Source: an uncultured Granulosicoccaceae bacterium | GTDB taxonomy: Bacteria; Pseudomonadota; Gammaproteobacteria; CALCKW01 | Length of the DNA: 35,209 nt | Reading direction: 5' to 3' | NCBI GenBank assembly: GCA_937925815.1 | Contig: CALAMQ010000173.1 | Location: 1-35,209, forward strand | Part shown: positions 351-21,117 of the stretch, in pieces | Layout of the letters: each line of letters begins with the position of its first letter | Numbering within the stretch: the first letter of the stretch is position 1 | Notes under the pieces: model-generated | Database searches by the model: none | Told to the model about the DNA's origin: nothing | What the model saw: only the letters and a program-made list of their open reading frames with translations | Program-made: the position numbers and the translations under genes

Positions 351-391
351 TTGACAGTTCAAGGGTCTACTGTTACGTTAGCTTACTAACG
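351..391 (+). promoter_or_regulatory. Promoter and MarR-type operator of the nicotinate operon
   Basis: A perfect -35 box TTGACA (351-356) is followed after 17 bases by a weak -10 (TACGTT, 374-379). A palindrome with arms CGTTAG (376-381) and CTAACG (386-391) overlaps the -10. Almost the same palindrome occurs at the promoter of the minus-strand ABC operon (17719-17736). The overlap fits repression by blocking RNA polymerase, with the MarR protein at 17983-18399 as the obvious candidate. Confidence 0.65.
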
Positions 392-478
392 CTATTCGTA
401 AATCGCCAAGGGCTAGGGTCAGTCTGTTGGAAGACCCCGTCAGCGCGTGCGGTGGCAACGGTAGAGGAGTGCGTGTAG

Positions 479-802
479 ATGACCTTTCTAGTGACTGAGA
501 ACTGCATCCGTTGCAAATATCAGGATTGTGTCTCCGTTTGCCCGGTCGATTGCTTCTTTGAAGGCGACACGATGCTGGTCATTGACCCCGACGAGTGCAT
601 CGACTGTGGTGTGTGTGTCCCAGAGTGCCCAGCGGATGCGATCGTTGCCGGGGATGAAGACGAGGACGGCTACTGGCTCGAGGTCAACACGCGCTTTGCG
701 AAAATTTGGCCAAATATCCTCACGCCCGGCGAGGTGCCTGCCGACGCGGACGAGTGGAACGGCAAATTAGGCAAGCGCGAGGTGTTGAACGGACATGGCT
801 GA
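479..802 (+). CDS. 7Fe-8S ferredoxin (FdxA type)
   Basis: A 107-residue low-potential electron carrier. The cysteine pattern matches Azotobacter ferredoxin I: C9, C17 and C50 are placed to bind a [3Fe-4S] cluster and C21, C40, C43 and C46 a [4Fe-4S] cluster, with C12 and C25 as extra cysteines. The C-terminal tail after residue 60 is also typical of the FdxA family. GGAG lies about nine bases before the ATG. The gene opens the operon and overlaps the ferredoxin reductase gene by 8 bases. Because the 6-hydroxynicotinate reductase of this pathway uses reduced ferredoxin, this protein is most simply its dedicated donor. That partnership is inferred from gene order. Confidence 0.9.
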
Positions 803-1625
803 AGCTGCAAGACACCTCGATTCTGAGCTGCTCATATTGGATGACGGGTTGCCAACGCCCGACAACTGTCTGCGCGCGCGCGTCCTGAGCGTCACCCACT
901 ACACTGATAACTTGTTTGAATTTTCGGTTGAGCGAGATCCGGGTTTTCGCTTCCAAGCCGGTGAATTTGCCATGTTGGGCTTGCCGCTTAGCGACACGCC
1001 GTTTCGTGCGTATTCAGTCGCCAGCGCGCCGTGGGAAGACCATCTGACCTTTTACTCAATCAAAGTGCCCGGTGGGCCGCTGACTGAGAAGTTGCAACAC
1101 CTGCAGGCGGGTGACTCGGTGCTACTCCGCCGCAAAACCACTGGCACTTTGGTCTGTGACGCGTTGTTGCCGGGCGAGCGTTTGATCATGCTGTCAACAG
1201 GCACTGGCGTTGCGCCCTTCGCCTCCGTTGCGCTTGACCCAGCAATCTACGACGCCTTTGGATCACTGGCGCTTGTTCAGGGTGTGCGCGTGTCGGCAGA
1301 GTTGCAATTTGCGCGTGCCTTACAACAGCGTATCGAGTCGGATGAGCTGATCCGCGAATTTGCGGCGGACCGCTTCGAACTGCTCACGTGCACCAGCCGC
1401 GAGGCCGGCGCGCGTGAGGGGCGGGTGACGGACTGGCTTTACTCAGGTGAGCTCGCCGCTGCAATGGGTTCCAGCGGGCTCGATCCCGAGACGGACCGCA
1501 TTATGATTTGTGGTTCAATGGCGATGCTCAATGAGCTCAAGTCATATGTAATTGATGCGGGGTTTGTGGAGGGTTCACGCAATCGCCCCGGTACTTTTGC
1601 GGTAGAGCGCGCTTTCGCCGGTTGA
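795..1625 (+). CDS. fpr: Ferredoxin--NADP+ reductase
   Basis: A 276-residue FAD enzyme of the bacterial (subclass I) ferredoxin-NADP+ reductase family. The FAD-binding motif RAYSVAS is near residue 73, the nucleotide-binding motif GTGVAPF near residue 137, and a MICGSMAM segment lies in the C-terminal part. The protein ends FAVERAFAG, like other Fpr proteins that close on an aromatic-x-x-(E/K)-x-AF pattern. It overlaps the ferredoxin gene by 8 bases, so the two are probably translationally coupled. Inferred role: pass electrons from NADPH to the ferredoxin and on to 6-hydroxynicotinate reductase. It could also serve the Rieske oxygenase encoded at 18697, which has no reductase gene beside it. 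Confidence 0.9.
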
Positions 1626-1657
1626 TGTGTTAGCGCTCTCGTAACAGGAAAGCAGGA

Positions 1658-2503
1658 ATGGGCTACGTGCTGGTCGCAACCGAAAATGAATTGCAAGACC
1701 GTTTGGCAAACGGTGGGTGCCGAGTGGCTGCGGGCATGACAGACATGTACCCATCTGGACAGCTGCCCGGTTCGACTGAGTCTGTGGTCGATATCAGCCA
1801 GGTGTCGTCGCTTCGTGATATCAGCTGCACGGACGGCGCGTGGCGTATTGGCACCACCGTGCGTTGGTCGGATGTGCGGGTATACCCCTGGCCTGCGGGT
1901 CTTGAGATGTTGGCTGAAGTCGCGAGCCAAGTCGGTGCGGTGCAGGTGCAAAATGCAGCGACCGTGGGCGGGAATTTATGCAATGCATCGCCTGCTGCCG
2001 ATGGGATGCCGGTATTGCTTGCGCTCGGTGCCACCGTTGAATTGTGGTCTGTGCGCGGTGTGCGGGAAATGCTGCTGTCTGATTTCATTACGGGTGTTCG
2101 CCGAACCGCGCTCGAGCCCGGTGAGTACCTTCGCGCGATTTGCTTCAAAAACAACGAAGACGCTGTCGCCAGCGCCTTTTGTAAATTGGGTTTGCGGCAG
2201 TACTTGGTGATTTCAATCGCGATGGCCGCAGGCCAACTTCGCTGTGATTCAGCAGGCTGTGTCAGTGGTATTTCACTGGCGCTCGGCGCGTGCTCACCGG
2301 TTGCCACCCGCTTGTCAGACATTGAAGCATCCATCGTCGGGAAGCCAGTGTCCAAATCCTTGATTGACGAAGTCACAGCGGAGCGCGTTGCCTCGGTGAT
2401 TAGCCCCATCGACGATGTGCGCGCGACAGCCGCATACCGCCGTGATGCGGCAGTGCATGTTCTGCGCGATACCCTCGCGCGTTTAGTGGAGGCGGTGGCA
2501 TGA
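1658..2503 (+). CDS. FAD-binding subunit of a molybdenum hydroxylase (probable nicotinate dehydrogenase)
   Basis: A 281-residue medium subunit of the xanthine dehydrogenase/CoxM family. The two flavin-binding motifs are visible: AAGMTD (residues 24-29) and TVGGNLCNASPAADG (102-116). A C-terminal CO-dehydrogenase flavoprotein-like domain follows. AGGA lies just upstream of the ATG. The gene overlaps the next one by 4 bases (ATGA), so it should form a complex with the fused 2Fe-2S/Mo protein. A FAD subunit implies NAD(P)+ as electron acceptor, unlike the cytochrome-linked NicAB enzyme of Pseudomonas. The family is certain. Nicotinate as substrate rests on the neighbours, which act on 6-hydroxynicotinate. 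Confidence 0.85.
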   Translation: MGYVLVATENELQDRLANGGCRVAAGMTDMYPSGQLPGSTESVVDISQVSSLRDISCTDGAWRIGTTVRWSDVRVYPWPAGLEMLAEVASQVGAVQVQNAATVGGNLCNASPAADGMPVLLALGATVELWSVRGVREMLLSDFITGVRRTALEPGEYLRAICFKNNEDAVASAFCKLGLRQYLVISIAMAAGQLRCDSAGCVSGISLALGACSPVATRLSDIEASIVGKPVSKSLIDEVTAERVASVISPIDDVRATAAYRRDAAVHVLRDTLARLVEAVA

Positions 2504-5253
2504 AAGTATCGCTGACATTGAACGGGCAAGAGACCAGCATCGATGACCTCAGCGGCGCCGAGCGGCTGTCCAGCGTGTTGCGTGAATCTTGTGGCGCACG
2601 CGACGTCAAAGTGGGCTGTGAGGCCGGCGACTGCGGGGCTTGTACCGTGCTGGTCGATGGCGAGGCGATGAACGCGTGTATTGTGCCGGTCGCGCAGGTT
2701 GCCAACCGCCACGTCGAGACGGCAGCCGGTTTGCACCGCAACGGCGACCCAGATGCGGTACGCGTCGCGAGCGCCTTTGACGCCGGTGGCGCAGTGCAAT
2801 GCGGAATCTGTTTCCCCGGATTTCTGACCTCCTTGGTCGCGCTAAAGCGCCAGCAATCCCAACCTACCGAAGCTGAAATCACCGATGCGCTTGGCGGCGT
2901 GTTGTGCCGCTGTTCGGGTTACCGCAAGTTGATCGACGCCGCGGTGTCGGCCTGCGATGGGTCCGTACCGCGTACCGAGTGTGATGCTCTCGCCGGCAGT
3001 GTTGGTGATGCGGTGGCGCGTGTTGACGGCTTGCCGCGAATCACTGGTGACCAAATTTTCGGTGATGACATTGCCCCCGCAGACGCGCTTCGGCTCAGAG
3101 TGCTGCGCTCGCCTCACGCGCGTGCACGCTTCACGATCGGCGACACCCAAAGCTGGGTTTCACATCATCCGGGGGTTGAACTTGTTCTCACGGCGTCTGA
3201 CGTGCCGGGGGTCAATCGTTACGGTGTGTTGCCGGGCTTTGAAGACCAGCCCGTCTTCGCTGAATCTGAAGCGCGTTTCCGGGGTGAAGCGGTCGCAGCT
3301 GTGGTTGGGGAAAAAGCCGTAATTGAGGGTTTAGATCTCAACGACTTCCCGGTGACGTGGGAGCCGCTTGATGCCCTTGTGGACATGCCATCGGCGCGCA
3401 AACCGTCTGCTGATGCCTTGCACGCACACGCAGCAGAGAACATTTTATGCCGTGGTCGGGTCGAGAAGGGCGATGTGACATCAGCATTGGCGAGCGCGGA
3501 GTTTATCAAGCGCGGCACCTTTGAGACCGGGTTTGTTGAGCACGCCTACATCGAGCCTGAAGCGGGCTACGCAAGTTTTGACGGTGAGCGGGTGTCGGTT
3601 TTTGGTTGCACGCAGGCCCCTGTTATGGATCAAGAAGCGCTCGCCGGCATTCTCGATCTGCGTCTCGCGCAGCTGCGCATTGTGCCAACAGCCGTTGGCG
3701 GGGGCTTTGGCTCCAAGCTTGACTTGTCTTTCCAGCCCTTTGTGGCGCTCGCGGCGATGCGACTCAAGCGCGCTGTGCGCATGTGTTACTCGCGGCAGGA
3801 GTCGATGCAGTCTTCGACCAAGCGTCATCCATCTCGGATTGAACTGTCTATTGGCGCAACGCGCGATGGCTACCTCACGGCCTGTGATTTCGACGGCGAG
3901 TTCAACACCGGTGCCTACGCCTCTTGGGGGCCCACTGTGGCCAACCGGGTGCCGGTTCACGCATCCGGCCCCTACGCCTACCCACACTATCGCGCGCGCA
4001 CCACTGGTGTTTACACCAACAACCCGCCAGCCGGTGCTTTCCGCGGCTTCGGTGTGCCGCAGGCGGCCATCGCATTAGAGTTGTTGTTGGATGAAATGGC
4101 AGATGAACTCGGGCTAGATCCGCTGGCTTTTCGTCAGAAGAATGCGTTGCAAAACAATGTGCCAACCGCGACCGGTCAATGCTTTTCACAGGGCGTGGGT
4201 ATCTCGGCGTGTTTTGATGCGCTCGCGCCTCACTGGCAGTCGTTGAATGCAGAGGCTGCGGCCTTCAACAACGAGTCTGCTCCGCGCTACCGACGCGGCG
4301 TGGGTCTGGCCGGTGGGTGGTACGGCTGCGGCAACACCTCGATGCCCAACCCGTCGACGATCAAGTCGGCCCTGCGCGCAGACGGTGGCGTTGTGCTGCA
4401 CCAAGGTGCTGTTGACATTGGACAAGGGTCCAACACAGTGATCGCGCAGATTTTTGCGACGGCCGTGGGCTGTTCACTGCACGCGCTTGAGTTGATCAGC
4501 GCGGACACGGACATCACACCGGATGCCGGCAAGACATCGGCGTCGCGCCAGACCTTCATCAGTGGCAATGCCGCGCGCTTGAGCGGGCTCTCTTTACGTC
4601 GCGAGTTGCTCGCGGCGCTCGGAGCGCCCGATGACGCAGATCTCGTGTTTGACCCCAATCTGACCGGTGCGCGGTTGGGCGACGCCTTTTGGCCATTTGA
4701 TGCCAGCGCCTTGCCGCTCGATAACGCGGGCTATGTCATCTGTGTCGAGGAGAGCTACGACCCGCCAACAGCACCGCTCGACGAAAACGGCCAGGGCGAA
4801 CCCTATGCGCAATTTGGTTATGCGGCGCATCTGGTGATGCTGACGGTGGATACGGCACTAGGCACTGTGGAACTCAATAAGATTGTGGCGGCACACGATG
4901 TCGGCAAGGCGATCAACCCGATTTTGGTTGAAGGCCAAGTGCACGGCGGTGTTGCTCAGGGCGTTGGTATGGCCTTGATGGAAGCCTATGTGCCAGGCCA
5001 GAGTGAAGATCTGCACAACTACCTCATACCAACCATTGGCGACGTTCCGCCAATAGAATCACTGATTGTCGAGGTGCCGGACGCGCACGGCGCGCACGGT
5101 GCCAAGGGCCTGGGTGAGCACGTGTTGATTCCAACTGCGCCTGCCATCCTCAATGGAATTCGACGGGCGACCGGTGCGCGTTTGCGTGCCATCCCCGCCA
5201 CCCCTGATGCCATTCTTACCGCATTGCGCGGTGACGAGCTTGTAGAAGAGTGA
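2500..5253 (+). CDS. Fused [2Fe-2S]/molybdopterin subunit of a molybdenum hydroxylase (probable nicotinate dehydrogenase)
   Basis: This 917-residue protein joins two subunits that are often separate. Residues 1-150 carry the plant-type 2Fe-2S set C40, C45, C48, C60 and the second cluster set C101, C104, C136, C138. From about residue 165 the xanthine dehydrogenase large-subunit domains follow, with the Mo-cofactor motifs GGGFGSK and GAFRGFG. A conserved glutamate near residue 873, in GLGEHVL, fits the catalytic base. Predicted reaction: hydroxylation of nicotinate at C6 with water as oxygen source, electrons passing through the Fe-S clusters to the FAD subunit. No signal peptide is seen, so it is cytoplasmic. 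The substrate is inferred from the adjacent 6-hydroxynicotinate reductase. No XdhC-like maturation factor is present in the window. Confidence 0.85.
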   Translation: MKVSLTLNGQETSIDDLSGAERLSSVLRESCGARDVKVGCEAGDCGACTVLVDGEAMNACIVPVAQVANRHVETAAGLHRNGDPDAVRVASAFDAGGAVQCGICFPGFLTSLVALKRQQSQPTEAEITDALGGVLCRCSGYRKLIDAAVSACDGSVPRTECDALAGSVGDAVARVDGLPRITGDQIFGDDIAPADALRLRVLRSPHARARFTIGDTQSWVSHHPGVELVLTASDVPGVNRYGVLPGFEDQPVFAESEARFRGEAVAAVVGEKAVIEGLDLNDFPVTWEPLDALVDMPSARKPSADALHAHAAENILCRGRVEKGDVTSALASAEFIKRGTFETGFVEHAYIEPEAGYASFDGERVSVFGCTQAPVMDQEALAGILDLRLAQLRIVPTAVGGGFGSKLDLSFQPFVALAAMRLKRAVRMCYSRQESMQSSTKRHPSRIELSIGATRDGYLTACDFDGEFNTGAYASWGPTVANRVPVHASGPYAYPHYRARTTGVYTNNPPAGAFRGFGVPQAAIALELLLDEMADELGLDPLAFRQKNALQNNVPTATGQCFSQGVGISACFDALAPHWQSLNAEAAAFNNESAPRYRRGVGLAGGWYGCGNTSMPNPSTIKSALRADGGVVLHQGAVDIGQGSNTVIAQIFATAVGCSLHALELISADTDITPDAGKTSASRQTFISGNAARLSGLSLRRELLAALGAPDDADLVFDPNLTGARLGDAFWPFDASALPLDNAGYVICVEESYDPPTAPLDENGQGEPYAQFGYAAHLVMLTVDTALGTVELNKIVAAHDVGKAINPILVEGQVHGGVAQGVGMALMEAYVPGQSEDLHNYLIPTIGDVPPIESLIVEVPDAHGAHGAKGLGEHVLIPTAPAILNGIRRATGARLRAIPATPDAILTALRGDELVEE

Positions 5254-5257
5254 TGAT

Positions 5258-6733
5258 ATGACTCGAGTGCCAGTCGAGAAGATTCGTTGCGACGCCTGTC
5301 CTGTGACCTGTTTCATTGCGCCGGGAAAGTCGGGCGCTTGTGATCGCTACGCCAATCACGACGGAGATTTGGTTCGATTGGATTCGCCAACCGTCGTCGA
5401 GCGAGTCGTTGCGCGCGGTGGTAAGCTCGTGCCATTTAGCCCCAGTGGTGAGTGGGACGGCGATGTGGTTCACAGCAATCGGCCATTTTTGACAGCGGTT
5501 GGCACGGGCACAACCTACCCAGACTACAAGCCAGCCCCTTTTATCGTGAGCCAGGATCTCGATGGCGTGGACCTCGTGACTGTGGTCACCGAGGGAATTT
5601 TCAGCTATTGCGGCGTCAAGGTGAAAATTGACACTGACCGGCACCTCGGTCACGAGTGCGCGAGCGTGCGCGCTAACGGTGAGGTGGTAGGTCACGTCAC
5701 CACGACTGAGTACGGCTCAAAGATGCTCTCCCTCGGCGGCGTTGAGCACCTGACGGGTGGCAGTAAGAAAGAGGGGCGTATCACCTGTGAGACCTTGTTG
5801 GCACTGACCAATCGGGAAGCCGTCACGCTGACCATTGACGAGGGCCCGGAAGTGATAGTCCAGGCTGGTCAGCCGCCGGTGATCGATGGCGTGACCGAGG
5901 CACGCATGCGCGTCGGCTGTGGTTCCGCGACTATAGGCATGTTTGCCAAACAGTGGTTTTCGCTGGTGGATGAAGTGGTGGTCGTGGATGACCACATCAC
6001 AGGTGTGTTATCTGAACACGAAGCGGGTAAGGGTCTGGACGTGCCGCCAACCGGCATCCGCATGCGCGGGCGCAAGTCGACCCCGGGCCGCTATTTTCAA
6101 GTTGCCAACCCAGGCACTGGCTGGGGTGGTACGGACATCGAAGACCCCTTGAGTATCATCGAACACTTCAAGCCAGCTGTTGCTTGGCCGGGATTGCGGT
6201 TGTTGATGGTGTCCACAACCGGCGAGCAGTGGGCGTACTTTGAACTCGATGATGACTTACAGCCGCAGCCGGCGGAGATCAGCGAGGCATTGCGTTTAAC
6301 CGTGGATCGCATCGAGGAGAACTGCGAGCCCTCGGTGTGTTCGGTGTTGTTCATGGGTGGTGCGGGTGGCTCATTGCGTGCTGGTGTCACCGAGAACCCT
6401 GTGCGCCTCACACGCTCTGTCAAAGACACGCTGACACACGTGAGTTGTGGCGGCGCTGAGGCCTATGTCTGGCCCGGTGGTGGCATCACTGTGATGGTGG
6501 ATGTGTGTGACATGCCATCCGGCTCTTTTGGCTACGTGCCAACCCCGGCACTGGTCGCGCCGATTGAATTTACCATGCGCCGCGATGACTACGCGGCGCT
6601 CGGCGGTCATGTCGACGAAATCGTGCCACTGCAATCCGTGCTCGATCAACCGCACCGCGCGGTAGACGCTGCCACTGCCCATTGGCCGGTGGATCAAAAC
6701 CACTTTGGTTGGCGCGAGCAAAACGGTGACTAG
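5258..6733 (+). CDS. hnr: 6-hydroxynicotinate reductase
   Basis: A 491-residue protein that I recognise as a homologue of 6-hydroxynicotinate reductase. That enzyme uses reduced ferredoxin to convert 6-hydroxynicotinate to 1,4,5,6-tetrahydro-6-oxonicotinate. The N-terminus has a cysteine set C11-x2-C14-x3-C18-x9-C28 suited to an Fe-S cluster, and further cysteines occur in the middle (SYCG, HEC) and near the end (NCEPSVC, SCGGAEAYVWPGGG). The characterised E. barkeri enzyme holds [2Fe-2S] and [4Fe-4S] clusters and a covalently bound flavin. The gene starts 4 bases after the dehydrogenase stop and overlaps the UPF0280 gene. The enamidase and ferredoxin genes in the same operon support the assignment strongly. 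Confidence 0.85.
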   Translation: MTRVPVEKIRCDACPVTCFIAPGKSGACDRYANHDGDLVRLDSPTVVERVVARGGKLVPFSPSGEWDGDVVHSNRPFLTAVGTGTTYPDYKPAPFIVSQDLDGVDLVTVVTEGIFSYCGVKVKIDTDRHLGHECASVRANGEVVGHVTTTEYGSKMLSLGGVEHLTGGSKKEGRITCETLLALTNREAVTLTIDEGPEVIVQAGQPPVIDGVTEARMRVGCGSATIGMFAKQWFSLVDEVVVVDDHITGVLSEHEAGKGLDVPPTGIRMRGRKSTPGRYFQVANPGTGWGGTDIEDPLSIIEHFKPAVAWPGLRLLMVSTTGEQWAYFELDDDLQPQPAEISEALRLTVDRIEENCEPSVCSVLFMGGAGGSLRAGVTENPVRLTRSVKDTLTHVSCGGAEAYVWPGGGITVMVDVCDMPSGSFGYVPTPALVAPIEFTMRRDDYAALGGHVDEIVPLQSVLDQPHRAVDAATAHWPVDQNHFGWREQNGD

Positions 6734-7616
6734 CCTCGCTGCGCGCTTGCCGCGGCGAGACCGCCCGGACAGTTTGCACCTGCAGCACGGTCCAATCGAT
6801 CTCGTGCTCAGCTACCACGGCGATGCCGCTGCGGTTGATCGCGCCTACGCGATGGCCGCAACCTACTTTGACGGCCTGTTGCAAGCGTTGGTGGACGAAC
6901 TCCCAGCCCTGCGCGCACAGACCCGTGCGGGCAATCAGTTTGCAGGTGCGGTGGCGCAACGCATGCAACGGGCGACAGAATCGGCGTCGCGTGGCACCTT
7001 TGTCACCCCGATGGCTGCAGTCGCGGGATCGGTGGCGGACGCCGTGCTCGAGGCGTCGTGGGTGCCTGGCATTACCCGCGCGAGCGTGAACAATGGTGGC
7101 GATATCGCACTGCGTTTGGCGCCACAAGAACGCTACACACTCAGGGTATGCAGCTTGGACAACCAGCCGCTCGCTGACTTTTCTGTGCATGAGCAAGACG
7201 GTATTGGCGGTGTTGCCACCAGTGGTCGCGGAGGCCGTAGCCTGAGTTGCGGTATCGCTGATTCTGTTACCGTGTTGGCGTCTTGCGCGGCCGAGGCGGA
7301 TGTCGCGGCCACATTGATCGCCAACGCGGTGGACATGCCCGGTTGCGACCGTATAGTACGTGAGCCGGCCAATGCGCTGCAGCCAGACTCCGATCTCGGG
7401 GAGCGCTTGGTCGTGACTCACTGCGGCGACTTGGACGAGCACGAAGTCGCCATGGCCCTAGACAATGGCGCGTGTTGCGCGCGTGAATGGGTCGACCGCG
7501 GCGCAGTTAAAGCCGTCGCGCTATTTCTCAGGGGCGCAACCCGCGTCGTTGGTTGTGAACGCAGCGTTGCCCTAGCGGGAAGCGCCAGTCAGGAGAGACA
7601 ATGCATAACGTTGTAG
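6726..7616 (+). CDS. UPF0280 family protein (ApbE superfamily), candidate flavin transferase
   Basis: A 296-residue protein from a GTG at 6726 that overlaps the reductase stop by 8 bases. A TTG at 6705 would add seven residues. It resembles UPF0280/COG2122, a group distantly related to ApbE FAD:protein FMN transferases. Visible segments are FVTPMAAVAGSVAD (about residues 95-108), NNGGDIALRL (about 121-130) and a late SCGIADSVTV, which correspond to conserved blocks of this superfamily. The function of UPF0280 is not established. The reductase encoded just upstream has covalent flavin in its characterised homologue, so a role in attaching it is plausible. This is inference from position and fold family. 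Confidence 0.75.
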   Translation: MTSLAARLPRRDRPDSLHLQHGPIDLVLSYHGDAAAVDRAYAMAATYFDGLLQALVDELPALRAQTRAGNQFAGAVAQRMQRATESASRGTFVTPMAAVAGSVADAVLEASWVPGITRASVNNGGDIALRLAPQERYTLRVCSLDNQPLADFSVHEQDGIGGVATSGRGGRSLSCGIADSVTVLASCAAEADVAATLIANAVDMPGCDRIVREPANALQPDSDLGERLVVTHCGDLDEHEVAMALDNGACCAREWVDRGAVKAVALFLRGATRVVGCERSVALAGSASQERQCITL

Positions 7617-8182
7617 TTCGACGTCAATTTGAATTCGTCGAAGAGATTTTTCATGAGGGTGGACCAAGGCCCGATGCGCCGCTGCGCAAAGCCGCGACGG
7701 TTGCAGTCATTCACAACCCCTTTGCCGGCAGTTACCACGAGGACATCAGTCCGTTCATGGAGGCATTGAAGCCCATTGGGCTTCAACTGGCGCGCGCCAC
7801 AGCTGAGGCTCTTGGCGGTGTCGAACGTGTGCAAGGTTATGGCAAGGGTGCCTTGGTAGGTTGCTCTGGCGAGCTTGAACACGGTGCCCTGTGGCACGTG
7901 CCCGGCGGCTATGCCATGCGTGAGATCCTTGGTGACGCACTTGCCATTGTGCCTTCGACTAAGAAAGTGTGCGCGCCCGGTGGATCGTTGGATATTCCCT
8001 TGACCCACGTCAACGCTTCCTATGTGCGCAGCCACTTCGATGCAATGGAAATTTGCCACAGTGACATGCCGCGTCACGATGAGATAGCCGTCGTCCTCGT
8101 CATGAGCGACGGCGCCCGAATTCACAACCGAGTCGGTGGCCTCGCCGCCGATGAAATCAGCGCAATGGACGGATTGAGATGA
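7601..8182 (+). CDS. DUF1185 / 'amino acid synthesis' family protein, copy 1
   Basis: A 193-residue protein of the AA_synth (DUF1185) family, whose reaction is not known to me. Conserved blocks are HNPFAGSYHED, YGKGALVG followed by GELEH, VPSTKK, SLDIPLTHVNASYVRSHFD and a C-terminal RVGGL...DGLR. It has no signal peptide or membrane segment, so it is probably cytoplasmic. It overlaps the UPF0280 gene by 16 bases, has its own AGGAGAG upstream of the ATG, and overlaps the second copy by 4 bases. The two copies share all these blocks but differ widely elsewhere, which suggests two distinct subunits or two successive reactions. Its operon place suggests a role in nicotinate breakdown, perhaps after enamidase. 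Confidence 0.8.
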   Translation: MHNVVVRRQFEFVEEIFHEGGPRPDAPLRKAATVAVIHNPFAGSYHEDISPFMEALKPIGLQLARATAEALGGVERVQGYGKGALVGCSGELEHGALWHVPGGYAMREILGDALAIVPSTKKVCAPGGSLDIPLTHVNASYVRSHFDAMEICHSDMPRHDEIAVVLVMSDGARIHNRVGGLAADEISAMDGLR

Positions 8183-8763
8183 AAGCGGACATTCGAAAAA
8201 TACTGGTCAATGTCGAGATTACTGAACGCGAAATGGGCCGGGAGATTTCACCGCCAACGCGCAAGGCGGTCGCCGCTGCTGTGATCGAGAACCCCTTTGC
8301 CGGGCGGTATGAGGAAGACCTGACACCGCTGATGGAGATCGGTGCTGAACTCGGCGCGCTGCTCGGTAAGCGCTGCGTGCAGGCACTTGGTATTGCGCCC
8401 GAGCAGGCCGAAAGCTATGGCAAGTCAGCCATGGTTGGCGAAAACGGCGAGCTCGAGCACGCGGCTGCCATTCTTCACCCTAAACTCGGCGCACCGCTGC
8501 GCGCTGAAGTTGAGAAGGGTGCGGCATTGGTGCCGTCGTCTAAAAAAATGGGCGGGCCGGGTCAGGTGCTCGATGTACCACTTGGTCATAAAGACGCAGC
8601 CTATGTTCGCAGTCATTTTGATGGCATTGAAGTGCGGTGCAGCGATGCGCCACGCGCCAACGAAATTTTGGTTGCAGTATCCGTGACCGACAGCGGGCGT
8701 CCCCTGCCACGCGTTGGCGGCCTGGAAGCCGCCGATGCAAAAGGCGAAGACGGCTTGCGCTGA
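8179..8763 (+). CDS. DUF1185 / 'amino acid synthesis' family protein, copy 2
   Basis: A 194-residue paralogue of the preceding protein, coupled to it through an ATGA overlap. It shares NPFAGRYEED, YGKSAMVG, GELEH, VPSSKK, LDVPLGHKDAAYVRSHFD, DAPRANEI and the ending DGLR. Conserved Lys, His, Asp and Glu residues in these blocks could form an active site, but no catalytic assignment is known to me. It is followed after 20 bases by the nicotinamidase gene. The tandem arrangement with strong divergence outside the motifs argues for an old duplication with separate roles or a heteromer rather than a recent copy. Confidence 0.8.
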   Translation: MKADIRKILVNVEITEREMGREISPPTRKAVAAAVIENPFAGRYEEDLTPLMEIGAELGALLGKRCVQALGIAPEQAESYGKSAMVGENGELEHAAAILHPKLGAPLRAEVEKGAALVPSSKKMGGPGQVLDVPLGHKDAAYVRSHFDGIEVRCSDAPRANEILVAVSVTDSGRPLPRVGGLEAADAKGEDGLR

Positions 8764-8783
8764 GGCCCACACGAGGAACAGTC

Positions 8784-9386
8784 ATGAACTCAGATCACGC
8801 ATTACTCATCATCGACGTTCAAAATGATTTCTGTCCAGGCGGCGCCTTGGCCGTGGAGCAGGGAGATCAGATTGTCGACAGCATCAACGCGATGCAATCG
8901 CAGTATTCCTGCGTTATCGCAACGCAAGATTGGCACCCCCAAGGGCACAGCTCCTTCGCCAGCACTCACAATGCTGAGCCGTTCTCAATGAAGCAGATGC
9001 CTTATGGTGAACAAGTGTTGTGGCCCGACCACTGCGTGATCGGAAGTGAAGGTGCTGCTTTTCACGCTCGGCTGCAAACCGAACGCGTCAACGCGGTGAT
9101 CCGAAAAGGCAGTAACCCGGCCATCGACAGTTATTCTGCGTTCTTCGAAAATGACCGCACAACCCCAACCGGTTTGCATGGGCTTCTGTCAGAGCTTGGG
9201 GTCAAGGACATCACGCTGGTGGGGCTTGCGACGGATTTCTGCGTCGCCTATTCGGCACTCGATGCCGCCCGACTCGGCTATGGCGTCACCGTGGATACGG
9301 CGGCGTGCCGCGCGATAGACATGAATGGCGAAACCCTTGCTGCGGCGATCACCGAGATGCGCGCTGCCGGCATCAACGTTCAGTAA
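8784..9386 (+). CDS. pncA: Nicotinamidase (PncA-type, isochorismatase fold)
   Basis: A 200-residue enzyme predicted to hydrolyse nicotinamide to nicotinate and ammonia. The catalytic triad of the family is present: D11 in IIDVQNDF, K108 in IRKGSNP and C153 in GLATDFCV. Metal ligands D49, H51 and H55 lie in DWHPQGH, with H83 in WPDHC. These motifs fit PncA better than maleamate or isochorismate hydrolases. I chose the ATG at 8784 because GAGGA precedes it at 8772-8776 and the catalytic Asp then sits at its usual place. Within this operon it would widen the substrate range from nicotinate to nicotinamide, although it could also serve NAD salvage. Confidence 0.9.
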   Translation: MNSDHALLIIDVQNDFCPGGALAVEQGDQIVDSINAMQSQYSCVIATQDWHPQGHSSFASTHNAEPFSMKQMPYGEQVLWPDHCVIGSEGAAFHARLQTERVNAVIRKGSNPAIDSYSAFFENDRTTPTGLHGLLSELGVKDITLVGLATDFCVAYSALDAARLGYGVTVDTAACRAIDMNGETLAAAITEMRAAGINVQ

Positions 9387-9397
9387 GGAGACTGCAC

Positions 9398-10564
9398 ATG
9401 AGCAAATTGGTTGTCAGGAACATCGACTTGATGCTGACGGGCAAGCTTGAAGCGCCGATCGACGACGCTGACTGCCTGATTGCGGTCAATGGCATCATCG
9501 AAGAGATTGGCAAAGAAGCCAACCTCGACACCAGTGGCGCTGATACAGTTGTCGATGCCAAAGGCACGGCTGTGTGCCCGGGACTGATTGACAGTCACAT
9601 TCACCCGGTGATCGGTGACTACACACCGCGCCAGAATCAATTGAACTGGATTGACTCCACGCTCAACGGCGGTGTCACCACCATGATCTCGGCGGGTGAA
9701 GTGCACATGCCCGGCCGGCCCAAAGACATCGTTGGCCTCAAAGCCATGGCCATCGCGTCTCAGCGCTGGTACGAAAACTTCCGACCCTCTGGCGTCAAAG
9801 TGCACGCCGGTGCGCCTGTAATCGAGCAGGGCATGGAAGAGCACGATTTCAAAGAAATGGCCGATGCAGGCGTCAAGCTGCTCGGCGAGATCGGGCTTGG
9901 CTCGGTCAAGGACGGGCCAACCGCCAAGAAAATGGTGGACTGGGCGCGCAAGTACGGCATGCAGAGCACCATCCACACCGGTGGTCCCTCGATCCCAGGT
10001 TCCGGCCTGATCGACAAAGACATCGTGCTCGAGGCGGGCACTGATGTCATTGGTCACATCAACGGCGGGCACTCGGCGTTGCCGGATGACCAGATCATCT
10101 GCCTGTGCGAGAGCTGTCTTGCGGGTATTGAGATCGTTCACAACGGCAACGAGCGCGCAGGCATTTTGACCGTCAACACCGCGCGTGAACTCGATCAGCT
10201 TGACCGCGTGATTCTCGGAACAGACGGCCCGGCCGGTTCCGGCGTGCAGCCACTTGGCATATTGCGCATGGTGGCGTTGCTCTCGAGTCTCGCCAATGTC
10301 AAAGCTGAGATTGCGTTCTGCTTTGCCACGGGGAATACCGCCCGTGTGCGTGAGCTCGACTGCGGCATCATCGAGCCCGGTCGCGTTGCCGATCTCGTGA
10401 TCATGGACCAAGCACAGCATTCCCCAGGCAAGAACCTGCTCGAGTCGGTCGAGCAGGGCAATCTGCCTGGCATTGGCATGGTAATCATCGACGGAGAAGT
10501 GCGCTGTCACCGCAGTCGCAACACACCGCCTGCTGGCCGTTTGCCGGAAGTGGTTGGAGCCTGA
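9398..10564 (+). CDS. ena: Enamidase (amidohydrolase; 1,4,5,6-tetrahydro-6-oxonicotinate hydrolase)
   Basis: A 388-residue amidohydrolase closely resembling enamidase of Eubacterium barkeri. That enzyme hydrolyses 1,4,5,6-tetrahydro-6-oxonicotinate to 2-formylglutarate and ammonia with a bimetal Fe/Zn centre. Predicted metal ligands are H67 and H69 in DSHIHP, a bridging E164 in GEIGLG, H193 in TIHTGG, H220 in GHINGG and D276 in GTDGP. Segments near YTPRQ, GGVTTMISAG, MPGRPKD and the C-terminal SRNTPPA are family-specific. The start at 9398 follows TAAGGAG. It is the last gene of the operon, and no gene for reduction of 2-formylglutarate follows. After it come 98 bases before the convergent gene at 10663. 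Confidence 0.9.
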   Translation: MSKLVVRNIDLMLTGKLEAPIDDADCLIAVNGIIEEIGKEANLDTSGADTVVDAKGTAVCPGLIDSHIHPVIGDYTPRQNQLNWIDSTLNGGVTTMISAGEVHMPGRPKDIVGLKAMAIASQRWYENFRPSGVKVHAGAPVIEQGMEEHDFKEMADAGVKLLGEIGLGSVKDGPTAKKMVDWARKYGMQSTIHTGGPSIPGSGLIDKDIVLEAGTDVIGHINGGHSALPDDQIICLCESCLAGIEIVHNGNERAGILTVNTARELDQLDRVILGTDGPAGSGVQPLGILRMVALLSSLANVKAEIAFCFATGNTARVRELDCGIIEPGRVADLVIMDQAQHSPGKNLLESVEQGNLPGIGMVIIDGEVRCHRSRNTPPAGRLPEVVGA

Positions 10565-12972: not shown

Positions 12973-13668
12973 TTAAACGCCGACGTACTTTTCAAGCAAA
13001 CTGCGGTCGGTTTTCAGCGTCGCCGCTGGTACCACTTCGCGGCTGTAGCCGTTTTCAATGAACGCGACTTTGTCCGCAATGGACAGCACCGCGTCGATGC
13101 GCTGCTCAACCAGCAAAACCCCAACCCCGGATTTGGACAGGGTAGAGACAACCTCCTGAATCAAGGCGACGATGGACGGCTGTAGGCCCTCTGTGGGTTC
13201 GTCGAGCAGCAAGAAGCGGGGATTGATGCAAAGCGCGCGGCCAATAGCCGCCATTTGTTGCTCGCCACCGGAGAGGGTGTGTGCCAGCTGGTTCATGCGT
13301 TCTTCGAGCCGCGGGAACAATTCCAGCACCCAGTCGAGCACACGGCTGTCCTCACCGCGTGCCATCAGACCGATTTCCAAGTTCTCCCGCACGGTGAGTT
13401 CGGGGAACAGGCGCCGGCCTTGTGGGGTATAGGCGACACGGTGCTTGGCGACGTGGTCAACCGGCAAGGTGTCGAGTCGGGTGCCGTCTACTGTGATCTG
13501 TCCGGCGCTCAGCGGCAGCAACCCCATGATGGCTTTCATGGTTGATGTCTTGCCGGCACCGTTGCGGCCGAGCACGCAGACGACTTCGCCCTCACAAACG
13601 GAGAGCGAGACGTCGTGCAACACCTTGACGCGTCCGTAGGCGGCGGCGATGCCACTCAGTTCTAGCAT
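12973..13668 (-). CDS. Branched-chain-type ABC transporter ATP-binding protein (LivF-like)
   Basis: A 231-residue ATPase of the LivF group. Walker A is GRNGAGKT (about residues 34-41), the signature is LSGGEQQ (about 130-136) and Walker B is FLLLDEPTEGL. The YTPQGRRLFPELTVRENL segment is typical of LivF. The ATG at 13668 is preceded by GGAGGATGAG. It is the last gene of the minus-strand operon and begins just after the livG stop. With LivG it powers import through the LivH/LivM pair. The shared operator palindrome suggests it imports the nicotinate-pathway substrate rather than branched-chain amino acids. Confidence 0.9.
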   Translation of the reverse strand: MLELSGIAAAYGRVKVLHDVSLSVCEGEVVCVLGRNGAGKTSTMKAIMGLLPLSAGQITVDGTRLDTLPVDHVAKHRVAYTPQGRRLFPELTVRENLEIGLMARGEDSRVLDWVLELFPRLEERMNQLAHTLSGGEQQMAAIGRALCINPRFLLLDEPTEGLQPSIVALIQEVVSTLSKSGVGVLLVEQRIDAVLSIADKVAFIENGYSREVVPAATLKTDRSLLEKYVGV

Positions 13669-13669
13669 C

Positions 13670-14377
13670 TCATCCTCCCAAATAGGCTGATTGAACGGCC
13701 GCGTTGCTTTGAATCGATTCAGGGTCGCCGCTCGCGAGCACGCGCCCAAACTGCAATACCGTGATGGTGTCGGCGACTGCCATGACCACGTCCATGTTGT
13801 GCTCAATCAACAGCAGCGTGGTCTCGCTGCGCAGGCTTTTGAGTAGATCGACAAACCATTGGACTTCGGCGTCCCCAAGTCCCTGTGTCGGCTCATCGAG
13901 AATCAGCAAGCTCGGTTTTTGCACGATGCCCAGTGCAATTTCCAACAGCCGTTGATGGCCGTAGGCGAGGTCACCTGCCAACTGCTGGCGGCGGTCGCTC
14001 AAGCCGACGGTTTCGAGCGCGTGATCGACTGCCTGCGCCATTGCATCACGCGCCTTGTGGCGAGCCATGGCGGCCAACTCAACGTTGGCCTCGATCGTCA
14101 TGTTGGGAAAAACAGACGTGATTTGAAAGGTGTAGGCAATGCCCATTTGCACGCGCCGGTACGCGGGAGCTTTGCTGATATCTTGGCCCTGCAGCACGAT
14201 GCGGCCGGCGTCGGGGAGAATGCGTCCACTGAGCAAATTGACCAGCGTGGATTTGCCGGCCCCGTTGGGTCCAATCAACGCGTGCACCGTGCCCGGTTCA
14301 ACCGCGAGATCAACAGTGTCGGTGGCGCGCAGGCCGCCGAAAGATTTGATGAGTCCGTGAGCTTCCAGCAAAGGCAT
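13670..14377 (-). CDS. Branched-chain-type ABC transporter ATP-binding protein (LivG-like)
   Basis: A 235-residue ATPase. Walker A is GPNGAGKST (residues 36-44), a LAYGHQR signature variant replaces LSGGQ as usual in LivG, and Walker B is LLILDEPTQGL followed by the His switch in LIEHNMD. The ATG at 14377 begins 5 bases after the livM stop. A longer open frame upstream runs through livM and is not used. The protein is shorter than E. coli LivG but normal for short-LivG families of this transporter class. Confidence 0.9.
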   Translation of the reverse strand: MPLLEAHGLIKSFGGLRATDTVDLAVEPGTVHALIGPNGAGKSTLVNLLSGRILPDAGRIVLQGQDISKAPAYRRVQMGIAYTFQITSVFPNMTIEANVELAAMARHKARDAMAQAVDHALETVGLSDRRQQLAGDLAYGHQRLLEIALGIVQKPSLLILDEPTQGLGDAEVQWFVDLLKSLRSETTLLLIEHNMDVVMAVADTITVLQFGRVLASGDPESIQSNAAVQSAYLGG

Positions 14378-14382
14378 GATGA

Positions 14383-15324
14383 TCACTGAATCCAGGGTGC
14401 GAGGCGGCGACGGATTGTTCCGACGATCCCCTCTGGGACATAGAGTGTGAGCAGCACCAATACGATGCCTGCCACGAGCATGTAGGCGGTTGTAAATTCG
14501 CTGCTGATATCGATCAGGTAGAACATCAACGCGGTGCCAATCAACGGACCGATCAATGTGCCAGTGCCACCGAGCAGCACCCACAACAGCGGGAAAATCG
14601 AATACTGGACCGATGCGAAGGTAGCGCCGACATAGCCAAATAGCAGGCTGTAAGCACCGCCAGCGAGCGCTGCCATCGCACCGGAAATGGCCAGTGCGCT
14701 GAGCTTTGCACGAAACACATTGAAGCCGAGCATTTGAGTTCGCTCTTCGTTCTCGCGAATCGCTACCAGTACTTTGCCAAGTCGGCTTCGAACGACAACC
14801 TGACAGCCCAAAACGCACAAGCTGATCAGCACCCACGAGACGATCAGCCGGGTGTCATCTGATGAGAGATCAATGCCCAAGAAAGTGCGTTTGTCTTGTG
14901 AGATTACGAAGCCTTCGTCGCCGCGCGTGAATTCACCAAACAGCAGCACCGTCAGAAAGAAGGCTTGCGAGAACATCAGTGTCACGATCATGAACGAGAC
15001 ACCGGTTGTGCGAAGCGCGAGCAGACCAACAGCCACCGCCAACACCAGGCCGCAAACAATGCCGAACAGAAAACCGATCTCTGAAGGAAATTCGAGCAGT
15101 TGCACTGTGAGGCCGACACCGTACAAACCGGCGGAAAAGAACATCGCGTGCCCGAGGCTGAGCAGGCCGGTGTAGCCAAAGCTGATGTTGTATGCGCAGG
15201 CAAAACAAGCCAGAACCATGATGCGCGCGAAGTTGCCCTGATGGTATTCAGGCAGCGCCAGCACGACCAATAACAAGGCCAGCAACAGCCCAATGTTGAA
15301 CAGTACGGAACGGTCCATGCTCAT
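14383..15324 (-). CDS. Branched-chain-type ABC transporter permease (LivM-like)
   Basis: A 313-residue inner-membrane permease with about eight to ten hydrophobic segments. The cytoplasmic coupling region RENEERTQMLGFNVFRAK (around residue 190) and the motif SFGYTGLLSLGHAMFF near residue 50 are typical of LivM. Its ATG overlaps the livH stop by 4 bases. It forms the translocation pore with LivH, working with the binding protein encoded at the head of the operon. Confidence 0.9.
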   Translation of the reverse strand: MSMDRSVLFNIGLLLALLLVVLALPEYHQGNFARIMVLACFACAYNISFGYTGLLSLGHAMFFSAGLYGVGLTVQLLEFPSEIGFLFGIVCGLVLAVAVGLLALRTTGVSFMIVTLMFSQAFFLTVLLFGEFTRGDEGFVISQDKRTFLGIDLSSDDTRLIVSWVLISLCVLGCQVVVRSRLGKVLVAIRENEERTQMLGFNVFRAKLSALAISGAMAALAGGAYSLLFGYVGATFASVQYSIFPLLWVLLGGTGTLIGPLIGTALMFYLIDISSEFTTAYMLVAGIVLVLLTLYVPEGIVGTIRRRLAPWIQ

Positions 15325-16250
15325 CTGCTGCTCCGCGTGAACAAGCCGGCAGGTCGCCAGATCAATACCAGCGCGACGAGCAAGGTTGCGAGAATTTTTG
15401 CAAGTGTGGGCGAAAAAAACACCGCGATCATGCCATTGCTCAACCCGATGATTGCGGCGGCCACCAAGGTGCCAGACAGGCTGCCTAAGCCGCCGAGAAT
15501 AACGACAATAAAGGACAGCAATAGTGGGTCGCCGCCCATCAGGTAATGGGCTTGCTGAATGGGCACAATCAACACAGCGCCCATCGCTGCCAGCGCACCG
15601 CCGGCTGCGAAAACCAGGCCGTACACCCGCTCAATGCGGATACCAAAAGCCTGGGCAATGTCTTTGTCTTGTTGCGTTGCACGCATGATCAGGCCATAGC
15701 GGGTTTTGGATAAAACCAACCAAACACCAATCAGCAGAACAATCGAGATGGCAATCACGGCGAGCTTGTAAGACGTGATGCTCAGGCCCCAGGGCCAGTA
15801 CACAGCCCAGCCCTGCTCAGTGATCTCAAGCCACGGAATGGCTAGGCGCGTATTGAACGGTGGTTCTACAGGGCGTGCGTCCGGCCCGAAAGTCATCAGC
15901 GATATCTGCTGGAAAATGTAGAGCAGGCCGACTGTCGCGACGATAGTGCGCTCTGGATCGTAGTCAACGCGGTTGATCACAATCCGATCAGAGGCGTAGG
16001 CAATTGCACCGACAAGCAACGGGCTTAAAACGAGTGCCACAGCAAAGCCAACGGCTGGCGAGAATGCGGTGAGTTGGTCTGTGATCCACCACGCCAGCAC
16101 GGCGCCAAGCATGAAAAATTCCCCGTGCGCGACGTTCACCACGCGCATGATGCCAAACACCAGCGCTAAACCGATGGCCGTCAAGGCCAGCACGGCGGTG
16201 GACACAGCGCTCTCTAAAAGCGCCAATAAAATGTGGGGTCCGAGTTCCAT
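15321..16250 (-). CDS. Branched-chain-type ABC transporter permease (LivH-like)
   Basis: A LivH-family permease of 309 residues from the ATG at 16250. GGAG lies eight bases upstream (16259-16262 on the plus coordinate), which favours this start over an ATG at 16286 that would add 12 residues. The segment VFGIMRVVNVAHGEFFMLGA near the N-terminus and ILGGLGSLSGTLVAA near the C-terminus are hallmarks of LivH. The coupling motif RATQQDKDIAQAFGI lies in the middle. It is separated from the binding protein gene by a strong hairpin at 16344-16369. Confidence 0.9.
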   Translation of the reverse strand: MELGPHILLALLESAVSTAVLALTAIGLALVFGIMRVVNVAHGEFFMLGAVLAWWITDQLTAFSPAVGFAVALVLSPLLVGAIAYASDRIVINRVDYDPERTIVATVGLLYIFQQISLMTFGPDARPVEPPFNTRLAIPWLEITEQGWAVYWPWGLSITSYKLAVIAISIVLLIGVWLVLSKTRYGLIMRATQQDKDIAQAFGIRIERVYGLVFAAGGALAAMGAVLIVPIQQAHYLMGGDPLLLSFIVVILGGLGSLSGTLVAAAIIGLSNGMIAVFFSPTLAKILATLLVALVLIWRPAGLFTRSSR

Positions 16251-16343
16251 CGACGCAGCTCCGACAGCAAGCGTGGGCAACAGCATCGCAGTTGTGCAGG
16301 GTAACTAGTGCACAACTTGCGAATGCGTAGGGGACATTAAAAT

Positions 16344-16369
16344 GCCGGGCAATCCAAGGATTGCCCGGC
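16344..16369 (-). terminator. Hairpin between binding-protein gene and livH (attenuator or mRNA-stabilising stem)
   Basis: GCCGGGCAATCC (16344-16355) and GGATTGCCCGGC (16358-16369) form a nearly perfect stem just after the stop of the binding-protein gene. In the minus direction it is followed by ATTTTAATG. In transporter operons such stems often let the first gene be expressed above the permease genes, through partial termination or 3'-end protection. Confidence 0.65.
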
Positions 16370-16380
16370 TCAGCACTGAC

Positions 16381-17679
16381 TCAGAGGGACTGTGTGGTGT
16401 AGTCCACTTCGTCTTCGTAGAGTCCGTCCTCAATCGACGTGGTGTGCACGCGATTGAGTTTGCCGCTTTCGACTCTGGAAATGTACTGGTGGCCAAACAC
16501 TTGGTGTGTCTTGCCGTTGAACAACTTCGATCCCTGAGGGAACTGGGCTGACTCATCAAAATTGCGCATCGCTTCAACCGCTTCAACCAGTTTCGCGCGG
16601 TCTTGCGGTCCCTTGTAGTCGCACGCTTCCATGCCCTGTTTGATGACAAAAAGCGTCTCCCAGCAGCCAAACATGTGCGAGTAGGTTGAAACGTCTCGGC
16701 TGTCTGAAATGGACGCGCCGTTCTCATCCACGCCGACCGCCGTGCGAAACGCTTTGTCGAATTCTGTTTGGTCTGACTGAGCGTTGCGTGGGTTGCCTTC
16801 CCAGAAGTAGCTGCCTTCGAGGAACTCCAAGCCTGGGGATTGCATGTCCACAGCTTCCAGGCTGTCGATGAACCCAAACAGTTGTGGCCCGCGGCCACCA
16901 AAGAACTCGCCCATTTCTTTGACAAAGGTCAATACCGCTGGCCCCACCATCACGTGGTACACCACCTCAGTGTCGCGAGGAATCTTGGGGAAATAACGCG
17001 TGAAGCTGGTCTCTGCCGGTGGAATGGCAATTTTCTCGAGAACTTGTCCACCTTGAGCTTCGATTGCGGCAGAGAAGTAATCGCGGTGGTCGTGGCCGAA
17101 AGCGAAGTCAGGGTAAATCATGGTGACTTTCTTGCCGAGGTTGCCCGCGACAAAAGGGGCCATGGCCTGTACTTGGCTTTTGACGTCTGTGATGCCGGGT
17201 TGGAGCGTGTAGCGGTTCAACATGCCGGACGCGACGTGGTGCCCTTCCGACACCACAAAGTAGGGCAGTTTGAGTTCGCCTGCGCGCGGCGCGGACCCGA
17301 TCACGACGTGGCTAAACAGGGTGCCAAAAGCCACGTCACAGTTGCGTTGTTTGGCGAATTTCTCAACCACCTCAGCGCCGCGTTTGGGATCGGTGCCGTC
17401 GTCCTCTGCCACGAGCTCAACCATGCGTCCGTTGATGCCGCCCATGTTGTTGATCGCGGCGACAGCAGCTTCAGTCGTGCGCCCGTACCAACGGCCGTAT
17501 GCGGCACCGATGCCTGAGCTGTGTTGTTGGAAACCGATTCGAATCGGTTCGGCGCTCTGGGCTTGTACATATTGGCCCAGCGATGCACCAGTCATAGCCG
17601 CTGCGGTAGTCACGCCAGCTGTTTTGAGAAAGGTTCGCCGAGAGGTATTCAGTGCTTCAACGTGCTTGTTTTTGCTCAT
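16381..17679 (-). CDS. ABC transporter substrate-binding protein (Liv/urea-amide type, Tat signal)
   Basis: A 432-residue periplasmic binding protein. The N-terminus has a twin-arginine signal, SRRTFLK at residues 13-19, then a hydrophobic stretch ending at VQAQS. The mature part begins PIRIGFQQHSSGIGAAYG, like the periplasmic-binding-protein-6 group that binds amides, urea or amino-acid-like ligands. The ATG at 17679 is preceded by GGAG at eight bases. It heads the operon with LivH, M, G and F. The promoter carries the palindrome also found in front of the nicotinate operon, so nicotinate, nicotinamide or a related pyridine is the likely ligand. That is inference, since the ligand cannot be read from the sequence. 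Confidence 0.85.
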   Translation of the reverse strand: MSKNKHVEALNTSRRTFLKTAGVTTAAAMTGASLGQYVQAQSAEPIRIGFQQHSSGIGAAYGRWYGRTTEAAVAAINNMGGINGRMVELVAEDDGTDPKRGAEVVEKFAKQRNCDVAFGTLFSHVVIGSAPRAGELKLPYFVVSEGHHVASGMLNRYTLQPGITDVKSQVQAMAPFVAGNLGKKVTMIYPDFAFGHDHRDYFSAAIEAQGGQVLEKIAIPPAETSFTRYFPKIPRDTEVVYHVMVGPAVLTFVKEMGEFFGGRGPQLFGFIDSLEAVDMQSPGLEFLEGSYFWEGNPRNAQSDQTEFDKAFRTAVGVDENGASISDSRDVSTYSHMFGCWETLFVIKQGMEACDYKGPQDRAKLVEAVEAMRNFDESAQFPQGSKLFNGKTHQVFGHQYISRVESGKLNRVHTTSIEDGLYEDEVDYTTQSL

Positions 17680-17718: not shown

Positions 17719-17756
17719 GTGTTAGCAAGCTAACACTAGGCTTCCTGACTTGTCAA
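17719..17756 (-). promoter_or_regulatory. Promoter and MarR-type operator of the ABC transporter operon
   Basis: On the minus strand a perfect TTGACA (17751-17756 in plus coordinates) is followed after 14 bases by the palindrome GTGTTAGCTTGCTAACAC (17719-17736), whose arms are perfect 8-base complements. The palindrome covers the -10 position. Its core GTTAGCTT.CTAAC is identical to that at 377-390 in front of the nicotinate operon, and both follow a TTGACA box. This arrangement is expected for repression by a dimeric MarR protein, one of which is encoded at 17983-18399. Confidence 0.7.
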
Positions 17757-17982: not shown

Positions 17983-18399
17983 TCAGCAGATCTTCTTGAG
18001 CAGCGTGAGCAATTGAGTTTGCTCGTCTGACGTCAGCGGGCTGAGTGTCTCCGTAGAGATGCTCAGCCCAATGCCCAGGAGACGCTCGACCAGCGCTTCA
18101 CCGTCCGCTGTGAGTTGTATTTTTCGGCGGCGCACGTCGGCGCTGTCGACAGCGCTTGATACCAAGCCTTTTTTGCGCAAACGATCGATCACGCCTTTGG
18201 TAGTGGCCACATCCATCCCCACCATCCGGCCGAGCAGGTTTTGGGAACTGCTGCCGACTTCCGTGAGCCGGACCAAGGTGGAAAACTGAGTGGGTGTGAG
18301 GTCTTCACCTATCAGCGACTGAAAAATGGAAGTGTGACGCTGCCCAGCGAGTCGCAATACGAAACCGATCTGTTCATCGAGTTGATAGGGGGCGCTCAT
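17983..18399 (-). CDS. MarR-family transcriptional regulator
   Basis: A 138-residue winged-helix regulator. LTPTQFSTLVRLTE (about residues 34-47) begins the DNA-binding part, the recognition region is GMDVATTKGVIDRLRKKGLV and the wing is DSADVRRRKIQLTADG. The N- and C-terminal helices should dimerise. I take the ATG at 18399 because AGGA lies seven bases upstream; a TTG directly in front would add one residue. MarR proteins bind palindromes of this size and release them on binding aromatic ligands. Pseudomonas NicR, a regulator of nicotinate genes, belongs to the same family. It likely represses the operons starting at 479 and 17679, and a pyridine intermediate may be its ligand. Confidence 0.85.
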   Translation of the reverse strand: MSAPYQLDEQIGFVLRLAGQRHTSIFQSLIGEDLTPTQFSTLVRLTEVGSSSQNLLGRMVGMDVATTKGVIDRLRKKGLVSSAVDSADVRRRKIQLTADGEALVERLLGIGLSISTETLSPLTSDEQTQLLTLLKKIC

Positions 18400-18624
18400 C
18401 AATCGTCCTTGGAGTCCGGTGGCCAGCGTTTGGCACAGATCGGATGGGGTTAGTGGAGGCGTGGAGAATGTACCGCCAAAACAGGTGTTTTATTCAGTGT
18501 AGTGTGTAAGCGGGCTCTCTCAGTATTCTGGCACTGCCAATCTGCCGGTGTCCACGGCCGGGCGTCGGATTGGATTGTGACTACTTTGAATTGGCCTCTA
18601 GGGGTTGAAACAAAAAGATCACTC

Positions 18625-18642
18625 GTATTAGCATGCAAACGC
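18625..18642 (+). promoter_or_regulatory. Weak third copy of the operator palindrome, upstream of the Rieske oxygenase gene
   Basis: GTATTAGCATGCAAACGC matches the 18-base palindrome at 17719-17736 at 14 positions. A TTGAAA box lies at 18605-18610, so the spacing to the palindrome is 14 bases, the same as at the transporter promoter. The right arm is degenerate, so binding would be weaker if it occurs. Confidence 0.4.
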
Positions 18643-19764: not shown

Positions 19765-19846
19765 TTAAAGGAATTAAGTGGGTGGGTTGCCTGTAGACCC
19801 GCTTGCAACATAAACCGGCCTGACTACGGGCCCAAGGAGTAAGAGG

Positions 19847-21046: not shown

Positions 21047-21059
21047 CATCTGCGACTTA

Positions 21060-21097
21060 CAGATGGGCCCACTGCCGAAGCGGCGTGGGCCCATCTG
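21060..21097 (+). terminator. Long hairpin between binding-protein gene and fused permease gene
   Basis: CAGATGGGCCCAC (21060-21072) pairs perfectly with GTGGGCCCATCTG (21085-21097), with an inner GCCG/CGGC stem in the loop. TTAATTG follows instead of a U tract. It lies in the same relative place as the stem at 16344-16369 in the other transporter operon, so it is more likely to set binding-protein excess than to end transcription fully. Confidence 0.65.
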
Positions 21098-21117
21098 TTA
21101 ATTGAGGCGAAACTAGC

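Follow-up and report, generated by a model that had tools for sequence, protein, structure and literature searches.

A predicted MarR regulon with a conserved palindromic operator at a reductive pyridine-catabolism cluster of a Granulosicoccaceae bacterium

We analysed a 35,209-nucleotide stretch of DNA (the window; contig CALAMQ010000173.1, assembly GCA_937925815.1) from an uncultured Granulosicoccaceae bacterium. It carries three operons, A to C, with a gene for a MarR-family regulator between the second and third (Table 1). A conserved palindrome precedes the operons neighbouring marR, and an operator role is predicted for it. Operon A would carry out ring hydroxylation, reduction and enamide hydrolysis of a pyridine carboxylate, and operon B would provide uptake through an ATP-binding cassette (ABC) importer. 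Operon C, under a weaker site, would add a Rieske oxygenase and a second ABC uptake system. An earlier note made from the letters alone (the sequence-only reading) had placed a MarR gene beside the second palindrome, and that is where we found it.

Table 1 Coordinates of the operons, genes, -35 boxes and predicted operators in the window.
Feature	Coordinates	Strand	Remarks
-35 TTGACA, operon A	351..356	+	perfect; 20 nt before operator 1
Operator 1 (predicted)	377..390	+	GTTAGCTTACTAAC; overlaps -10 region of the ferredoxin-to-enamidase operon
Operon A	479..10564	+	ten genes; putative single transcript, from spacing and strand
FdxA-family ferredoxin	479-802	+	operon A; gene downstream of site 1
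Ferredoxin--NADP reductase-like	795-1625	+	operon A
Molybdenum hydroxylase FAD subunit	1658-2503	+	operon A
Molybdenum hydroxylase Fe-S/Mo subunit	2500-5253	+	operon A
6-Hydroxynicotinate-reductase homologue	5258-6733	+	operon A
UPF0280 protein	6705-7616	+	operon A
Two AA_synth/DUF1185 proteins	7601-8182, 8179-8763	+	operon A
Isochorismatase-family hydrolase	8784-9386	+	operon A
Enamidase homologue	9398-10564	+	operon A
Operon B	12973..17679	-	complete LIV-type ABC importer
Two ATPases	13670-14380, 12973-13668	-	operon B
Two LIV-type permeases	15321-16286, 14383-15324	-	operon B
Tat-signal periplasmic binding protein	16381-17679	-	operon B; gene downstream of site 2
Operator 2 (predicted)	17721..17734	-	GTTAGCTTGCTAAC; over operon B -10 region
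-35 TTGACA, operon B	17751..17756	-	perfect; 16 nt before operator 2
MarR-family regulator	17983..18399	-	between operons B and C; BpsR relative; proposed repressor of all three operons
TTGAAA, operon C	18605..18610	+	TTGAAA-N16-ATTAGCATGCAAAC spans 18605-18640
Operator 3 (predicted), degenerate	18627..18640	+	ATTAGCATGCAAAC; 16 nt after TTGAAA, 56 nt before the Rieske gene
Operon C	18697..24451	+	Rieske oxygenase and second complete ABC importer
VanA/DdmC-type Rieske oxygenase	18697-19764	+	operon C; nearest is dicamba O-demethylase
Periplasmic binding protein	19847-21046	+	operon C; very close to 3i45 (closest solved relative)
Fused LIV permease	21118-22980	+	operon C
Two ATPases	22977-23747, 23744-24451	+	operon C

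Checked directly, the palindrome reads ACGTTAGCTTACTAACGC at 375-392 (+) before the ferredoxin gene and GTGTTAGCTTGCTAACAC at 17736-17719 (-) before the binding-protein gene, letter for letter where the sequence-only reading had described them. That reading had also put a perfect TTGACA ahead of both palindromes and had the -10 position covered, and the promoter geometry agrees: the palindromes start 20 and 16 nt past TTGACA and therefore overlap the -10 hexamer expected at a 17-nt spacer. The third site stands 227 nt from marR, and its position is also occupied in the Sulfitobacter litoralis and S. pontiacus loci. The genome-wide motif search that had been proposed as a check was made by pattern search on the assembly (3,555,601 bases, 183 contigs, 99% complete). 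It returned two exact copies of GTTAGCNNNCTAAC in the whole 3.56 Mb genome, at 377-390 and 17721-17734, both inside the window. With 2-3 mismatches the pattern occurred at background frequency in window and genome scans, so only the near-exact form of the motif is informative. Five other near-matches elsewhere in the genome were rejected as further regulon members: they fall inside coding sequence or close to genes that are housekeeping or unrelated to the pathway.

Across four genomes of the genus we observed six occurrences of GTTAGYNNRCTAAC, all near cluster genes. In G000 it precedes both the ferredoxin and the binding-protein gene, and in G002 the ferredoxin gene; G003 has one copy ahead of the molybdenum-hydroxylase gene and another ahead of the enamidase gene, and the single site of G001 lies upstream of the isochorismatase gene. 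The 22-bp block CTGTTACGTTAGCTTACTAACG (operator 1) is invariant in three species of the genus. G001 shows no match to the reductase gene, yet its MarR gene and operon B are kept. Its site sits inside a block, TTGACA...CTGTTACGTTAGCTTACTAACG, that is shared unchanged with the ferredoxin promoters of the two other species, with diverged flanks. The whole ferredoxin -35/operator block is found there ~300 bp before a lone isochorismatase gene (L075, G001:C39, 18514-19506), and it looks like a promoter left behind by a deletion.

The motif was then compared over 26 related loci from Alpha-, Beta- and Gammaproteobacteria. The generalised core GTTNGNNNNCNAAC was present in 41 of 111 leader regions, a count in which divergent regions enter twice; 200 dinucleotide shuffles gave 1.7 on average and 6 at most. 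After de-duplication there were 33 sites in 30 kb of leader DNA and 29 in the 577 kb remainder of the same loci. For the generalised form TYRTTNGYATRCNAAYRA, the density was 1.09/kb before cluster genes and 0.05/kb elsewhere in the loci, an enrichment of ~22-fold. A perfect TTGACA lies 16-26 nt upstream of 14 of the 44 occurrences of the generalised motif (divergent regions again counted twice), in comparison to ~0.25 expected by our own estimate for equal base frequencies. The consensus half-site is TYRTTNGYA, and in relatives the motif drifts to GTTYGTATACRAAC. A likeness of the two promoter palindromes by mere chance, which the background frequency of the mismatched pattern might invite, is already contradicted by this enrichment and by the confinement of both exact genome copies to the cluster, and we regard it as hardly credible.

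The motif also follows the regulator gene. In Rhodobacterales and Hyphomicrobiales these catabolic genes likewise have an orthologue of the MarR gene next to them, and no motif sites were found in two complete-looking clusters that have no copy of this MarR gene (Comamonadaceae L095 and gammaproteobacterial L102). The encoded protein belongs to the MarR family by its PF01047 domain (34.2 bits, cut-off 24.6), and its closest solved relatives (2nnn, BpsR; 38% identity to BpsR) place it in the subfamily of BpsR from Bordetella. In BpsR, 6-hydroxynicotinate is contacted at its 6-OH by Tyr15, at the ring nitrogen by His32 and at the carboxylate by Arg26, and the ligand-bound protein no longer binds DNA (PMC6837509). 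The window MarR keeps three of the four BpsR contacts to 6-hydroxynicotinate (Tyr15, Arg26 and His32); in the window protein, counted from MSAPY, they are Tyr5, Arg16 and His22. The three residues are likewise present in most MarRs of related clusters, where Phe or Tyr stands at the His23 position, and those of L094, L100 and L101 carry Asn in place of His32.

Together, these data make it very probable that the window MarR represses operons A, B and C by covering their core promoters, and that 6-hydroxynicotinate or a close analogue releases it. A MarR dimer would bind sites of the GTTAGC-NN-GCTAAC type, 16-20 nt behind the -35 box and over the -10 region; because the sites cover that region, the bound protein would block RNA polymerase at the three promoters. 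The ligand would then fill the MarR pocket, the recognition helices would part and the operons would be induced. We build this explanation on the sites and their promoter geometry, on the conservation of the motif together with marR, on the conserved pocket residues and on the families of the enzymes, and from these we infer binding, repression rather than activation, ligand identity and a steric mechanism. The claim of the sequence-only reading that one MarR regulon joins catabolism and uptake is supported by the genome-wide uniqueness of the motif, its restriction to the cluster throughout the genus, the cross-class conservation of motif and marR, and the promoter geometry. As to extent, the two promoters it had named stand, and the third, that of operon C with its weaker site, had been overlooked.

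Several observations weigh against this explanation. Site 3 is degenerate, the generalised core was widened after relatives (Rhizobium variants) had been seen, and the loci compared are not phylogenetically independent, several being close relatives. The association of motif and MarR is also incomplete: the same criteria yield no site in four MarR-bearing loci (L024, L025, L028 and L097). In the pocket, the His23 of BpsR is replaced by Phe, and the window MarR is hence a BpsR relative only, not a four-contact sensor of the BpsR type. Finally, the motif fits the general MarR/SlyA type, and the genome holds ~13 MarR-domain genes above the Pfam cut-off. These last two points bear on whether the palindromes, although real operators, serve another MarR/SlyA-type protein encoded elsewhere, with the neighbouring MarR regulating something else. 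Site 2 contains the SlyA consensus TTAGCAAGCTAA exactly (PMC5797941), and the nearest paralogue in the genome, at C8, reaches 40%. However, the genome has no SlyA orthologue above the NCBIfam cut-off (the window MarR itself scores 38.5 bits on NF002926, cut-off 120), and the motif accompanies the adjoining MarR gene from class to class and is missing from the clusters that have no such gene. The C8 paralogue falls in another clade of the tree; paralogues of this kind have Leu or Met, Phe, Arg, and Leu or Val at the four pocket positions and no longer carry the ligand residues. No site lies within 1.5 kb of the C8 copy of this genome. We therefore consider control by another such protein improbable.

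The direction of control can be weighed in the same way. Gene activation is known for some members of the MarR family, including SlyA (PMC5797941), and the window MarR could be an activator, or both activator and repressor, at these promoters. Sites that follow a consensus -35 box and lie over the -10 region are instead repressor geometry, and BpsR loses DNA binding with 6-hydroxynicotinate bound; an activating role seems very unlikely to us.

With regard to the ligand, we lean towards 6-hydroxynicotinate itself. The contacts to the 6-OH, ring nitrogen and carboxylate are kept, and the enzymes of operon A fit a 6-hydroxynicotinate route: the reductase homologue shares ~70% identity with proteins annotated as 6-hydroxynicotinate reductase, and the enamidase homologue has the crystallised enamidase 2vun as its sole PDB match (E 1e-106), both pointing to the reductive (THON) pathway. 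Nicotinate dehydrogenase genes (nicAB) also lie beside hnr and marR in two related clusters. The pocket might instead accept another pyridine carboxylate or betaine, such as an N-methylated pyridine carboxylate, or a ring-reduced intermediate, as the Phe or Tyr at the His23 position and the demethylase-type Rieske oxygenase in operon C could suggest. The molybdenum hydroxylase speaks for this too, since the 3hrd nicotinate dehydrogenase subunits match it, though not best, and aldehyde oxidoreductases are nearer. Such a ligand is a possibility we hold tentatively, and 6-hydroxynicotinate remains our preferred candidate.

The gene content offers some further observations. UPF0280 and the two adjacent AA_synth/DUF1185 proteins (7601-8763) are constant partners of the 6-hydroxynicotinate-reductase homologue, and the second AA_synth/DUF1185 protein has solved relatives in 2qtp and 3byq. 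In operon C, the demethylase-type Rieske oxygenase shares one operon with the second importer under the same presumed repressor, and its role may be to feed a pyridine betaine into the pathway by demethylation. The ligand of 3i45, the close relative of the operon C binding protein, is probably nicotinate. Among L090-L101, the catabolic cluster and its MarR are often plasmid-borne in Roseobacteraceae and Rhizobiaceae. Hydantoinase/acetophenone-carboxylase-type gene pairs recur beside the cluster in L093, L094, L096, L097, L100 and L101 and are absent from the window.

Next to known systems, the closest likeness is to BpsR, which responds to 6-hydroxynicotinate and controls nicotinate catabolism genes (PMC6837509); NicR of Pseudomonas putida is likewise a MarR-type repressor of nicotinate catabolism. 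Unlike the window MarR, BpsR belongs to its own tree branch (support 1.0 for the BpsR group), with the window protein outside. BpsR-type regulators occur in maleamate-pathway clusters (nicC, nicD, nicE, nicF, nicX, nicAB), whereas the window enzymes are those of the reductive route. No window-type palindromes were found before nic genes in the five BpsR-type maleamate-pathway clusters scanned. Given this and the separate BpsR branch, the window MarR appears to be a sister regulator, dedicated to the reductive route and with its own operator; and because the scanned clusters are without this operator, the regulon appears to be a distinct one of a known kind.

Reductive nicotinate clusters have been described from Eubacterium barkeri, Azorhizobium caulinodans and Bradyrhizobiaceae SG-6C (PMC3511419). 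Like the window, they bring together a 6-hydroxynicotinate-reductase homologue, genes for the first three steps, an ABC transporter and two conserved unknown proteins, and the window also shares the enamidase homologue. In contrast, a MarR regulator goes unmentioned there, and the window adds the Rieske oxygenase and a second ABC system. The exact SlyA consensus in site 2 is a likeness to SlyA sites, set against the want of a SlyA orthologue above cut-off and the drift of the motif in relatives. A literature search, mostly of papers outside subscription, found no published description of this regulon and nothing decisive on homarine or trigonelline catabolic genes. We consider it doubtful, though worth stating, that TYRTTNGYATRCNAAYRA marks an operator and regulon not described before, spread through Alpha- and Gammaproteobacteria, whose single MarR ties the reductive pyridine pathway to a Rieske demethylase with an ABC importer of its own.

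In conclusion, the comparisons support a predicted three-operon MarR regulon, conserved across proteobacteria, as a new example of a familiar form of gene control. The reductive nicotinate-type pathway of aerobic proteobacteria would thereby gain a defined operator, a regulator and a candidate inducer, and the motif could be used to find regulon members in other genomes, and perhaps the substrates of both transporters and of the Rieske oxygenase. The findings suggest that this MarR subfamily uses its sensing of 6-hydroxynicotinate in two degradation routes of different chemistry, with different operators. The contribution of operon C, a demethylase-type Rieske oxygenase and its own importer under the same presumed repressor, is the less certain and more interesting part. 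If the coupling holds, substrates may include N-methylated pyridine carboxylates such as trigonelline, which would be demethylated to nicotinate and then reduced.
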